NCBI RefSeq assembly: GCF_019391655.1
Contig: NZ_JAHXPQ010000005.1
Location: 186,001 to 250,000 of the forward strand
Length of the DNA stretch: 64,000 nt
Direction: 5' to 3'
From: Mucilaginibacter rivuli
GTDB lineage: Bacteria; Bacteroidota; Bacteroidia; Sphingobacteriales; Sphingobacteriaceae
Of this stretch, positions 55,056 to 60,068 are shown piece after piece (the stretch's first letter is position 1; the number at the start of each line of letters is the position of its first letter). The notes under the pieces were generated by a model. The model was given only the letters and a program-made list of their open reading frames with translations. It did no database searches and was not told the DNA's origin. The position numbers were made by a program, and so were the translations under genes.

Positions 55056-56147
55056 CCCCTTTCTACAAAAAATATCCTGAGCAATTTATTTACCGGGCTT
55101 ACCGTACTGTGCTTTTTTGCTAATGCGCAGGCCCAAAAAACGGTATCATTTCAGGATGCACATGTGCGGGAAATGGGGCGCATAGCTTATAAAAGCGACT
55201 ACGCTGTTTTGTATTATTCGGGCACATCGCTCGAAATCAATTTTACCGGAACCGGTGTCAAAGCATGGCTAAAAGATGAGCGCGGTGATAATTATTTTAA
55301 TGTGATAGTTGACGGTAAGATCGTAGTGTTGCACCCTGATACCGCCAAACGTTTATACACCCTGGCATCGGGCTTAACTTATGGCAACCATACCTTGCAA
55401 CTATACAAACGTAGCGAATGGGGTGACGGCAGCACTAATTTTTACAGTTTCCAGTTTGATAACAGCGCCACCATATTACCTGCACCACCCGTTAAAAAAC
55501 GAGCAATCGAGTTTTATGGTAACTCCATAACCGCGGGTTATGCTATTGAAGATTATTCGGGCCGCGACTCGTACCTGAGCCGGTATAAAAACAATTACAT
55601 TACCTACGCCGCTTTAACAGCAAGGCATTATGATGCACAATGGTCATTCATCGCAAAAAGTGGTATTGGTGTTACCGTGGGCTATTACCCGGCAACTATG
55701 CCCGAAATTTACGAGCGTCTTGATCCGCTTGACGAAAAAAGCAAATGGGATTTCAGTAAATATACCCCGCAGGTAGTGGTGGTTAACCTTTTTCAAAATG
55801 ACGCCGGGGTTATCCAGTCAGGCAGCGGCGCTTTGTTCGAGGCACGCTTTGGCCACACCCCTCCTACAGAACAATTCATTGTAAACACTTATAAAAATTT
55901 TATTAAAGGTATCCGCTCCAAATATCCTAAAGCAAGCATTATTTGTTCGTTGGGTAGTATGAGCGCCTGTAAACCGGGCTTACCATGGTCTGGCTATATT
56001 CAAAGCGCGGTACAGCAACTTAACGACAAAAATATTTACAGCTTTATATTCACCTATAAAAACACACCGGGCCACCCTACCGTTAAAGAGCACCAGGCTA
56101 TGGCCGATGAGTTGATCGGCTTTATTGATAAAACGATAAAGTGGTAA
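55053..56147 (+). CDS. Secreted SGNH/GDSL esterase, CE2-like
   Basis: 364 residues with a signal peptide ending near AQAQ. An N-terminal beta-sandwich (about 30-145) has SGTSLEINFTGTGVKAWL. The SGNH domain begins with EFYGNSITAGYAIE near 152 (nucleophile Ser) and ends with the catalytic His in TPGHPTVKEH near 342. This two-domain order is that of carbohydrate esterase family 2, which removes acetyl groups from plant polysaccharides. Block III is NLFQNDA instead of the usual N-x-G-x-ND. It is expected in the periplasm or outside. Confidence 0.85.
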   Translation: MPLSTKNILSNLFTGLTVLCFFANAQAQKTVSFQDAHVREMGRIAYKSDYAVLYYSGTSLEINFTGTGVKAWLKDERGDNYFNVIVDGKIVVLHPDTAKRLYTLASGLTYGNHTLQLYKRSEWGDGSTNFYSFQFDNSATILPAPPVKKRAIEFYGNSITAGYAIEDYSGRDSYLSRYKNNYITYAALTARHYDAQWSFIAKSGIGVTVGYYPATMPEIYERLDPLDEKSKWDFSKYTPQVVVVNLFQNDAGVIQSGSGALFEARFGHTPPTEQFIVNTYKNFIKGIRSKYPKASIICSLGSMSACKPGLPWSGYIQSAVQQLNDKNIYSFIFTYKNTPGHPTVKEHQAMADELIGFIDKTIKW

Positions 56148-56249
56148 TAGATTGGATTTATCGGTTGACGTTGAATAGTTATCGAACACCAAACAATAAA
56201 ATGATGAAGTGATAGATATTTATGGTCGGCATTTATATCTAAAAACTAA

Positions 56250-56654
56250 CTATTCCATATACTCACTTGGCCCTTTATCATCAGCATCGTCTTTGGCTTC
56301 AACGGCCGATGATCCACTGGCATAGCGTTGAGCACCGTCATAATCGGGTTCGCCTTGTTGCTCCGGTACTTTAAAATTATTGTTTTCGGGATGCTCTTCC
56401 AGGGGCCGTGTTTGCGCTAAGTAGGCATTGGTTGATCCTGCGTTTTGCGATGGATTGTTAGGGTCATTGCCTGTTGGCGGATGATTCTCTTCGCCAAATT
56501 TGTGCCCGCCCATGCCTTGCCCTTCCATGCCGGGCGTATTGGCAACTTTTTGATTATCGCCGAAAAGGAAAGAGCGTTTCAGGTCTTTCTCCACTTTATT
56601 TTTACCTTGTTCGCCATTGCGGGTTTCGGGGCTGCTTTGATCGTTGGTTTCCAT
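56250..56654 (-). CDS. Hydrophilic, probably disordered small protein
   Basis: 134 residues, very rich in N, G, E, D, P and Q, with almost no hydrophobic clusters. The residue mix suggests an unfolded protein, and no family is recognised. It has no signal peptide. It lies near other small hydrophilic proteins (57591, 57933), which suggests stress-related accessory genes, but no shared motif with them was seen. Confidence 0.6.
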   Translation of the reverse strand: METNDQSSPETRNGEQGKNKVEKDLKRSFLFGDNQKVANTPGMEGQGMGGHKFGEENHPPTGNDPNNPSQNAGSTNAYLAQTRPLEEHPENNNFKVPEQQGEPDYDGAQRYASGSSAVEAKDDADDKGPSEYME

Positions 56655-56758
56655 AACTATGCCATTTATAATAGTTTAATGCTTTAAGTTTTTAATTGTT
56701 TTAGTGTAGCAACAAAATTTGCCGATTAGTGTTAAATTAGATTACCAATTATACAGCC

Positions 56759-57460
56759 ATGAATAAAGTAGTTGCATCTGCCAGTGAGGCTATTAAAGGT
56801 ATAACCAATGGCATGACCCTAATGCTGGGTGGCTTTGGTTTGTGCGGCCTGCCCGAAAACTGTATTGCCGAGCTGTCAAAAAGCGGGGTAAAAAATCTTA
56901 CCTGCATATCAAACAACGCGGGTGTTGATGGTTTCGGTATCGGAATGCTGCTTGCTAACAGGCAGGTTAAAAAAATGATATCGAGCTACGTGGGCGAAAA
57001 TGCCGAGTTTGAGCGCCAGTTATTAAGCGGCGAGTTGGATGTTGAACTGATCCCGCAAGGTACTTTAGCTACGCGCTGTATGGCTGCAGGCTATGGCATG
57101 CCTGCTATATTTACCCCCGCCGGTATTGGTACCGAGATAGCCATTGGTAAAGAGGTGCGCAATTTTAACGGGAAGGATTACCTGATGGAAATGGCTTTTG
57201 ATGCCGATTTTGCCATTGTAAAAGCCTGGAAAGGCGATACCATGGGCAACCTGGTATACCGTTCAACAGCGCGTAATTTTAACGCCGTAATGGCGATGGC
57301 CGGAAAGTTAACCATTGCCGAAGTGGAAGAATTGGTTGAACCCGGCGAATTAGATCCTGACCATATCCATACACCCGGAATATATGTTCACCGGATATTT
57401 AAGGGTGCTGACTATGAGAAGCGCATTGAACAGCGAACCGTGAGAAAGAAAGAAGTATGA
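56759..57460 (+). CDS. scoA: 3-oxoacid CoA-transferase subunit A
   Basis: 233 residues with the alpha-subunit signature GGFGLCGLPENCI (about 24-36). ISNNAGVDGFGIG and the TRCMAAGYGMPAIFTPAGIGTE region follow. The family moves CoA between succinyl-CoA and acetoacetate (or acetyl/butyryl groups) as an A2B2 enzyme. Its partner subunit B, which carries the catalytic glutamate and is normally next to it, is not in the following sequence. Either B lies elsewhere or the gene is orphaned. Confidence 0.88.
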   Translation: MNKVVASASEAIKGITNGMTLMLGGFGLCGLPENCIAELSKSGVKNLTCISNNAGVDGFGIGMLLANRQVKKMISSYVGENAEFERQLLSGELDVELIPQGTLATRCMAAGYGMPAIFTPAGIGTEIAIGKEVRNFNGKDYLMEMAFDADFAIVKAWKGDTMGNLVYRSTARNFNAVMAMAGKLTIAEVEELVEPGELDPDHIHTPGIYVHRIFKGADYEKRIEQRTVRKKEV

Positions 57461-57590
57461 TATTCCGGTACAAAAAATGACACCAAATAATACATTTTAC
57501 TAATTTTTTTGTATAATTTTATATAGTTAAAATTTACTGACGTTTTCGGAACATTTGTTTTAATACTACCCACAATTAAAACCTGAATTT

Positions 57591-57785
57591 ATGAAAGCTG
57601 TTAACAAAACCCCACAAACACAGGTTAATTTGAACCTTGAAGAAATGCCTAAAGCGGCCGAAGCCGAAACGCATGTACGCGTTGCTACTTTGTACACGCT
57701 GCACTCCAACTTTATCGGTATCGATCATCGCCGTAAAACGGGCAGAATGGTAGGCCATGAGCCGGGGCCCGATCATATTTTTTGA
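57591..57785 (+). CDS. Small protein with C-terminal TGRMVGHEPG tail, copy A
   Basis: 64 residues: a hydrophilic first half, then VATLYTLHSNFIGIDHRRKTGRMVGHEPGPDHIF. The C-terminal TGRMVGHEPG-x-D is shared with the next small gene. No signal peptide is present. The start is chosen because the ATG follows a long AT-rich leader and the frame is open only from here. Function unknown. Confidence 0.65.
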   Translation: MKAVNKTPQTQVNLNLEEMPKAAEAETHVRVATLYTLHSNFIGIDHRRKTGRMVGHEPGPDHIF

Positions 57786-57932
57786 TACCTTAAAAAATTG
57801 CAAACCTGAGGCGCAAATGCGTTACCGTGAATTTTAGATCAATTCAGGATGAGGAATGTTTTATTTCAGATTAAAATAAAAACTTTAACGAAATAAATTG
57901 TTGTTAAGATATAATTATTAAAACTTAACATC

Positions 57933-58271
57933 ATGGAAGCAAATAAAGAAAACCCGGAAACATTTAAAAGTCCGGATGAATTTAACCAGGCAGATAGCGA
58001 GCAGGTTGAACAACCTGAACGCCATGAATATAAACAGGCAGATAGCGAGCAAGTTGAACAACCTGAACGCCATGAGTTTGAAGAAGAAGGCACAGGAGAA
58101 GCGGGCGGTTATCAGCAAGATACTGAAGTAGAAAACCCAAGCCAAAACGACAACCCTTCTACCGAACATACTACATTGCATAACCGCGAAGTTGATTTTC
58201 AGCCAAGTAACCATGGGCGCTCAACAGGCCGTATGGTGGGGCACGAGCCGGGAATTGATAATGCGGTGTAA
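57933..58271 (+). CDS. Small acidic protein with tandem repeat and TGRMVGHEPG tail, copy B
   Basis: 112 residues, strongly acidic. Two tandem 16-residue units QADSEQVEQPERHEYK and QADSEQVEQPERHEFE are encoded by a 48-bp duplication at 57987-58082. The C-terminus HGRSTGRMVGHEPGIDNAV shares its tail with the protein at 57591. It is expected to be unfolded except perhaps the tail. Function unknown. Confidence 0.65.
   Translation: MEANKENPETFKSPDEFNQADSEQVEQPERHEYKQADSEQVEQPERHEFEEEGTGEAGGYQQDTEVENPSQNDNPSTEHTTLHNREVDFQPSNHGRSTGRMVGHEPGIDNAV
57987..58082 (+). repeat. 48-bp tandem duplication inside the small-protein gene
   Basis: Two adjacent 48-bp units (57987-58034 and 58035-58082) are nearly identical. 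The repeat keeps the reading frame. It indicates recent slippage or unequal crossing-over. Confidence 0.85.
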
Positions 58272-58280
58272 CTTTTATTT

Positions 58281-58360
58281 CGGATTTCGAATTTTCAATT
58301 TCGGATTATTGAATAGCATTTCAATTCCGAATGGAGATTGGAAATCCGATTTTTTTTTTC
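58281..58360 (+). terminator. Large hairpin with T-run after the small-protein gene
   Basis: CGGATTTCGAATTTTCAATT and the following bases are roughly complementary to the segment that ends GGAAATCCG (58348). A T10 run follows. Further partial copies (AAATCCGAAATCGGAAATTC) occur near 58385-58405. It is probably a terminator built from an intergenic repeat. Confidence 0.55.
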
Positions 58361-58473
58361 GCCTATCTTGATTTTGCGAATTTTCAAATCCGAAATCGGA
58401 AATTCTTCAAAAGCAACCCTTTGCTGGTTTAATACGATATAATTATATATCTTGAACTAAAATTACTCCCAAT

Positions 58474-59370
58474 ATGGAACGCCGTAAATTTCTGCTCAAT
58501 TCAGGTTTATCCCTGGCATCACTTGCCTTGCTTAACAATAAAACTTTCGCATCATTCGCACAGGACCCTTTTCAGATTAAAACCTTAAGAGGTAACGTGG
58601 GTATCTTTACCGAAAAGGGTGGCACTATTGCCTGGATGATAAATAAAGGTGGCATAGTTGTGGTTGATGCTGAGTTTCCGGAACAGGCAACGCACTTGAT
58701 AACCGAATTGAAAAAACGATCGGAATTGCCATTCGAATGGCTCATCAATACCCATCACCATGGCGACCATACCAGCGGGAACATTTCATTTAAAGGTATT
58801 GCAAAAAAAGTAGCGGCCCATGCCAACTCGCTGGCTAACCAAACCGAAGTAGCTGTAGCGGGCAAAACAGAAGATAAACAACTATACCCCGATACTACCT
58901 GGACCGATACCTGGAAGGTAAAAGTTGGCGATGAAACTATTAAAGCCCACTATTTTGGTCGCGGTCATACCAATGGCGATAGCATGATCCACTTTGAGAA
59001 TGCCAACATTGTACATACCGGCGACCTTGTTTTTAACCGCCGCTACCCCGTTATTGATATGAAGCACGGTGCATCGCTGCGCAGTTGGGCACAAACCCTT
59101 GAAAAAGCGCAGCATACTTTTAATAAGGACACCTTGTTTGTTTTTGGCCATGCTTTTGATCCCGCCAAGGTAACCGGCACTATGGACGATGTTAAAGCCA
59201 TGCAAAACTACATGGTGCAGGCAGTTGCCTTTGTTGATAGCCAGATAAAATCCGGTAAAACAAAAGATGAAATAGCAACCGCTACCAGCATACCTGGTGT
59301 TACCGATTGGCAAGGTCCAGGCATAAAAACCACCCTGAATGCCGCGTATGATGAGCTAACGGCAGGATAA
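58474..59370 (+). CDS. Exported MBL-fold metallo-hydrolase with twin-arginine-like signal
   Basis: 298 residues. The N-terminus ERRKFLLNSGLSLASLALL is a likely Tat signal. The metal motif HHHGDH (94-99) is the MBL HxHxDH. GRGHTNGDSMIHF and HTGDLVFNRRYP supply further ligands, with a final FGHA. Subgroup (lactonase, glyoxalase II-like or beta-lactamase-like) is not clear. It is probably periplasmic. The Tat signal suits a protein folded with metal in the cytoplasm. Confidence 0.82.
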   Translation: MERRKFLLNSGLSLASLALLNNKTFASFAQDPFQIKTLRGNVGIFTEKGGTIAWMINKGGIVVVDAEFPEQATHLITELKKRSELPFEWLINTHHHGDHTSGNISFKGIAKKVAAHANSLANQTEVAVAGKTEDKQLYPDTTWTDTWKVKVGDETIKAHYFGRGHTNGDSMIHFENANIVHTGDLVFNRRYPVIDMKHGASLRSWAQTLEKAQHTFNKDTLFVFGHAFDPAKVTGTMDDVKAMQNYMVQAVAFVDSQIKSGKTKDEIATATSIPGVTDWQGPGIKTTLNAAYDELTAG

Positions 59371-59402
59371 GTTTATCAAAAATTGGTATACTTGCTGCCA
59401 AT

Positions 59403-59873
59403 ATGATAGAGATATTTACAGACGGGGCATCGAGCGGCAACCCGGGACCTGGCGGTTATGGAGCAATATTGCGTTCGGGTCAGCATTACAAGGAGTTATC
59501 AGAAGGTTTCAGAAAAACCACCAATAACCGCATGGAACTGCTTGCTGTTATTAAGGCCTTAGAAGCTGTAAAGAAACCTGGGCAACAGATCACTATCTAC
59601 TCCGACTCAAAATATGTGATAGATCCTATCGAAAAAAAGTGGATATACGGTTGGGTGCAAAAGGGATTTAAGGATAAAAAGAACAAAGACCTTTGGATGC
59701 GTTTTTTAGAAGTGAGCAAAATACACCATATCAAATTTGTTTGGGTGCGCGGCCACAACGGGCACCCCGAAAATGAGCGCTGCGATCAGATGGCGGTAAA
59801 TGCTTCCAAACAAAAAGGCCTGCTTATCGACTCAGTTTTTGAAGTTGAAGCAAGCCGTGAAGGCTTACTTTGA
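59403..59873 (+). CDS. rnhA: Ribonuclease HI
   Basis: 156 residues. The four catalytic acids are in place: D7 in FTDGASS, E45 in NNRMELLAV, D68 in IYSDSKYV and D128 in NERCDQMA. The basic handle WIYGWVQKGFKDKKNKDLW is also present. It cuts RNA in RNA-DNA hybrids. The last 9 bp overlap the convergent small membrane gene. Confidence 0.96.
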   Translation: MIEIFTDGASSGNPGPGGYGAILRSGQHYKELSEGFRKTTNNRMELLAVIKALEAVKKPGQQITIYSDSKYVIDPIEKKWIYGWVQKGFKDKKNKDLWMRFLEVSKIHHIKFVWVRGHNGHPENERCDQMAVNASKQKGLLIDSVFEVEASREGLL

Positions 59874-60068
59874 TAGCTTAGCTTCACGACGAGCCTTAAT
59901 TTTTAATATCAAAGCACCAAAGCTTACAGCTATACCAAAACCCATCAAAGCACCAATTAAAAAGTCGGGCACTTTTCCATGCATAGCGTTTCTATTTAGG
60001 TACAAACCTGTTGCTAATGCAATTGGGCCAATTATCAAAAATATAGTGTGGAGTTTATTTCTATCCAT
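59865..60068 (-). CDS. Small two-helix membrane protein
   Basis: 67 residues with two hydrophobic helices (about 8-24 and 34-55) and a basic tail (KIKARREAKLSK). No family is recognised. It lies 14 bp after the fbp stop on the same strand, so it may be co-transcribed. Confidence 0.55.
   Translation of the reverse strand: MDRNKLHTIFLIIGPIALATGLYLNRNAMHGKVPDFLIGALMGFGIAVSFGALILKIKARREAKLSK

Follow-up and report, generated by a model that had tools for sequence, protein, structure and literature searches.

A conserved C-terminal peptide on variable, mostly acidic small proteins of Mucilaginibacter

The window analyzed in this work is a stretch of 64,000 nucleotides of the genome of Mucilaginibacter rivuli, in which two adjacent genes code for small proteins that differ in their first parts and share their last residues; the question raised by this locus is what such a strict C-terminal peptide could do on proteins that are otherwise so variable. 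The original prediction had described two neighbouring ORFs with a common TGRMVGHEPG tail, and this description is exact in its coordinates and endings, given that both ORFs end with this peptide followed by five additional residues. The features of the region are the following:

57591..57785, + strand: P0001, the short family member of 64 residues, which ends in KTGRMVGHEPGPDHIF and lacks the acidic body (computed pI 8.2)
57735..57782, + strand: conserved C-terminal tail of P0001
57933..58271, + strand: P0002, the acidic family member of 112 residues, which ends in STGRMVGHEPGIDNAV (computed pI 4.35)
57976..58071, + strand: direct repeat of 48 nt inside the acidic body of P0002, in two copies that are 94% alike; its length is a multiple of three
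58221..58268, + strand: conserved C-terminal tail of P0002

The pair of genes in the window

A degenerate DNA pattern for GRMVGHEPG, allowing up to 2 mismatches, found two copies in the 4.58-Mb genome, both of them the window sites, and the reversed control pattern gave no match in the same genome. The codons for TGRMVGHEPG differ between the two genes at 7 of 30 nucleotides without a single amino-acid change. When the differences were path-averaged over 11 codons, 6 synonymous changes in 8.2 sites and 3 nonsynonymous changes were obtained; two of the latter are located in the codon that precedes TGR, and the other arises from the averaging itself, in a codon that is Arg in both genes. These silent differences indicate that the identity of the two tails has been kept by selection at the level of the peptide, and that it does not reflect a fresh DNA copy or chance. 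In pairwise comparisons among eight proteins, P0001 had its best score (93) with L179 of genome G177, which has the same gene order as the window and one copy, while P0002 had its best scores (161 and 162) with ordinary members of the genus. Since the two proteins have different closest relatives, the pair represents an old two-copy state, which may have originated either by duplication or from two lineages. Two copies per genome are unusual, since the family profile A1 (see below) found one match in most genomes; the tail is shared by the pair, as had been claimed, but it is not peculiar to it.

Conservation and spread of the tail

A set of 95 distinct proteins, 61 to 231 residues long by mechanical ORF calling, was collected by requiring GR and EPG near the end, so that the invariance of these residues in the set is by construction. 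In the members that were read, the core is R-x-T-G-R-M-[VIL]-[GD]-H-E-P-G and ends 1 to 13 residues before the stop codon. An R precedes the core in all 95 proteins, and an F is found at position −16 in 94; the T and the E that follow the core are kept in 93 and 92 of the 95, respectively. Within the genus, the region from −40 to −16 is semi-conserved (SYSEQ-DVTPP--EFPS-G) and is followed by the F and by GR-TGRM-GHEPGTE. The bodies are very variable and acidic, with a median pI of 4.2 (range 4.05–9.7), and in other genera they often consist of a run of Asp. Among 21 proteins of these other genera, HEPG is present near the end in 20, the fuller core in 16, and a pI below 4.6 in 20. The tail is kept without the acidic body in two members: P0001, and L161, a basic protein of 59 residues with a pI of 10.4.

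At the DNA level, the mean identity of the 12 core codons in 94 genes is 0.93, 0.99 and 0.57 at the first, second and third positions; this wide variation of the third positions argues for selection on the peptide and not on an RNA or DNA element. For 1500 gene pairs, which are not independent, pN/pS was 0.07 in the 15 tail codons, a value that the collection procedure itself lowers, versus 0.45 in the 24 preceding codons, where the comparison was ungapped and is inflated by misalignment. A control that does not depend on the tail was provided by the 30 best cysteine desulfurase loci of the genus, which are the nearest to the query's genome and are not independent. A family gene was present downstream of the desulfurase at 22 of them and none was recognized at the other 8; 20 of the 22 tails read TGRM[VIL]GHEPG, one TGRMVGQEPG (L262) and one TSRMLGHEPG (L279).

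The charge-hydropathy line places 94 of the 95 proteins among the disordered ones, the one exception being P0001. AlphaFold2, run on P0002 with a 30-row alignment, returned a mean pLDDT of 54.6 with no residue at or above 70 and no secondary structure; the tail receives no structure either, which is expected for a motif modelled without its partner and equally for an end without function. The strict tail on variable, largely disordered bodies that had been proposed holds for the family, but the disorder does not extend to P0001 by the charge-hydropathy measure.

The 64-residue protein as a query matched 38 of 60 relatives at E ≤1: 35 of the 37 genomes of the genus (its own included), where nearly all matches fall in the tail region, and 3 genomes from outside the genus, whose matches, with E >0.6, were taken as noise. 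Scanning 84,980 genomes, one per species, with the DNA pattern yielded 96 stretches; in 86 of these the motif lies 3–9 residues from the C-terminus, in 3 it is internal in unrelated ORFs, and in 7 no ORF contains it. Names were available for 80 stretches, of which 8 come from unrelated taxa, 1 from Pararcticibacter, and the rest from Mucilaginibacter or Bacteroidetes MAGs. A family profile of 59 positions (A1) matched 123 of the 399 genomes of the taxonomic family at E ≤0.1. The original prediction had also considered a motif restricted to one strain; it is not so restricted, given that A1 matched 100 of 105 sampled Mucilaginibacter genomes (own genome included), and at least eight further genera with E <0.001 (g26, g30, g35, g36, g43, g44, g45 and g48). 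A tail profile of 43 positions (A3) matched 99 of the same 105 genomes and added genus g29, and g25 was added by gene position. The weakest matches within the taxonomic family, in G066, G217 and G360, together with the second match in G286, were read and are not family members; other weak matches, in G074, G166, G433 and G444, are known by score alone.

Of the 25 genera sampled, 14 yielded no credible member, which implies that any partner of the tail does not generally need these proteins. A search of 296 genomes across the phylum gave no clear member outside the taxonomic family; the 13 outside matches (E 0.012–0.05), known by score alone, appear at about the rate expected by chance at that limit. 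A tblastn search of phage and plasmid collections with one typical member (L094) gave no match, and the pattern search of viral contigs gave two stretches with an identical short frame, which were discarded as family members because the motif lies far from the end of the frame.

Composition, disorder and the proposed role of the tail

P0001 and P0002 have no match in Pfam or NCBIfam, the relatives and PHROG searches gave chance-level matches only (E 0.14 and 0.36), and the tail profile found nothing in the PDB; this agrees with the earlier statement that no recognized family carries the motif. The Rfam search over window positions 56000–60000 found nothing, and the literature searched contained nothing on the family or the motif and no paper with the string GRMVGHEPG. 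The best reading of these sequences is that both proteins belong to a new family of a known sort, a hydrophilin-like chain with a conserved end.

It is reasonable to infer that this end acts as a binding or targeting signal. We favor, with a probability of roughly 0.55, that the family consists of tethered disordered chains, usually polyanionic, whose C-terminus serves as a short linear motif for docking to a conserved partner inside the cell. According to this proposal, the variable body would be a disordered spacer, in most cases polyanionic, and the last 12–20 residues would constitute the docking motif; the location would be cytoplasmic, considering that no signal sequence is seen by eye in the family proteins. 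The likely purpose would be the delivery of a hydrophilin-like, hydrated chain to one particular component of the cell, perhaps during salt or water stress. A floppy chain that ends so strictly, and a tail that outlasts the acidic body, are best accommodated by a docking motif. Counted against docking are the tails that have been lost or eroded: G246 has a family body without a tail, and no remnant of it was seen in any frame when the stretch was read; the tails of L178, L236, L285 and L282 are altered, L282 being a 66-residue second copy in G366 that ends with SSHRMIDHEPG; in G390 the match is limited to a 39-residue frame; and the second copy in G007 contains a stop.

The alternative that survives best, which we regard as somewhat unlikely, is that of a plain hydrophilin: the whole chain would protect by hydration, and the tail would set only solubility or half-life, for instance by keeping proteases away from the C-terminus, and would have no partner of its own. 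Hydrophilins are small, disordered stress proteins that are induced by water or osmotic stress, and they are defined by a glycine content above about 6% and a mean hydrophilicity above 1. Like them, the family is hydrophilic, predicted to be disordered and devoid of Cys (absent in 95 of 95 proteins); glycine exceeds 6% in 85 of the 95 and 84 have both properties, among them P0002 (7.1% and 1.69). In addition, a small same-strand ORF comes next at 47 of the 80 loci with enough flanking sequence, and several of these ORFs are hydrophilic, although some clearly are not. In contrast with hydrophilins, the most conserved part of the family is its C-terminal core, and a bulk property would not call for a near-invariant core whose pN/pS is as low as that given above. 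Moreover, the tail persists where the hydrophilic body is gone, as in P0001, whose hydrophilicity of 0.62 places it outside the composition rule.

Gene neighbourhood and other C-terminal peptides

The commonest gene order in the relatives is cysteine desulfurase (assigned by Pfam and NCBIfam matches), tail gene and a convergent gene that we take to be accD. A tie between the tail gene and the desulfurase was considered and found to be weak: besides the 8 of 30 loci without a family gene, the two are located on different contigs in the window genome. The neighbours in the window are presumably the subunit A of a CoA-transferase upstream, and a metallo-beta-lactamase-fold hydrolase and an RNase H downstream. 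Other small hydrophilic ORFs adjoin the tail gene in many relatives; three of them (L014:1666-1899, L030:1165-1392 and L166:1617-1826) have no Pfam match. Near the pair, the window contains a hydrophilic ORF of 134 residues (56250–56654, − strand) with no Pfam or NCBIfam match. The single ORF L015:886-1581 has a front part similar to a separate upstream ORF in L006, L011 and L019.

Two kinds of elements were observed upstream of the family genes. A two-box element of the type AAACAA[TA]-N13-GGTT[TA] precedes 46 of the 95 genes (shuffled mean 1.1, highest 3), the pattern having been framed on the same 95 upstream sequences in which it was counted; in L010, L029 and L032, for example, it lies about 53 nt before the ATG. 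Its strict form occurs at 12 sites, spread over 8 genomes (1 site for the reversed control), of which 7 are at the tail gene, at 54–55 nt, 4 inside ORFs and 1 elsewhere; no match was found upstream of P0001 or P0002. Could this element be a gene-specific promoter or operator? A site of the type TTGGCAxG...TTGC, which resembles the sigma-54 consensus, is present in 16 of the 95 upstream regions (shuffled mean 2.0, highest 6), for example some 48 nt upstream of the ATG in L057, L066, L082 and L092, and two of the 16 regions also carry the two-box element. The Bacteroidota sigma-A box, TAnnTTTG, is not enriched in these regions (6 of 95 versus a shuffled mean of 16). After the P0002 gene, positions 58277–58405 contain inverted repeats that overlap one another, along with a T run, possibly a terminator with long loops; a simple terminator scan did not list it.

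It is quite improbable that the block F-x5-G-R-x-T-G-R-M-x-G-H-E-P-G is a ribosome-arrest peptide that stalls its own translation, senses a condition and regulates a neighbouring gene. The conservation of about 20 residues at the C-terminus, the variable front and the Pro-Gly ending are in accordance with such a role, as is the presence of some same-strand ORF downstream at 54 of the 80 loci, and a secA-leader cluster that has a C-terminal Pro has been described from Sphingobacteriaceae (PMC10987492). The bacterial arrest peptides of the RAPP-like and NSP-stop types share with the family the variable front and the conserved C-terminal motif with Pro; the published examples have a localisation signal at the N-terminus and are encoded upstream of sec or yidC genes (PMC10987492), whereas the family has no localisation signal by eye and no conserved downstream gene. 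An arrest peptide should precede the gene that it regulates, which argues against this role, since at 26 of the 80 loci the first ORF longer than 150 residues is convergent and no same-strand ORF of at least 50 residues lies in between, and at the other 54 the downstream ORFs are of varied kinds (15 further loci, with too short a flank, were left out of the count). The conservation of the T and the E beyond the core is also against arrest.

Encapsulin cargo and type IX secretion substrates have C-terminal signals on otherwise variable proteins, and family 2A encapsulins have among their named cargo a cysteine desulfurase (model NF041166), the kind of enzyme encoded by the usual neighbour, which matches this model at 116 bits, far under the 800-bit cut-off; nevertheless, it is very improbable that the tail directs proteins to an encapsulin shell or acts as a type IX secretion signal, given that a search for the family 1 shell alone (PF04454) found it in 0 of 13 genomes and in 3 of 14 control genomes, and that P0002 has neither a folded C-terminal domain predicted by AlphaFold2, nor a Pfam match, nor a signal peptide by eye. 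The proposed docking tail has closer parallels in the C-terminal tip of SSB (PMC10164576) and the C-terminal peptide of FtsZ (PMC12607630), in which a variable disordered linker ends in a conserved short peptide; in contrast to these, P0002 has no globular domain before the linker, and the motif is unrelated by eye. Since no residue of P0002 reaches the pLDDT of 70 taken for a globular domain, the family could be said to work like the SSB and FtsZ type, and not to be one of its members.

A bolder version of the docking proposal, which we consider rather doubtful, is that the tail works as a C-terminal address tag that can be transferred between proteins, is peculiar to one bacterial family and is recognized by a dedicated receptor, to which the acidic chain would be delivered as a tethered polyanion; such a tag could be retained on different small bodies, as in P0001 and L161. 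The sharply defined peptide motif described here marks a hitherto unnamed protein family present in nearly all the sampled genomes of the genus. Should there be a receptor, a peptide of 17 residues would suffice as bait to find it, and if the docking proposal is true, stress-type disordered proteins with a specific docking end would offer a testable idea of how bacteria direct such chains.
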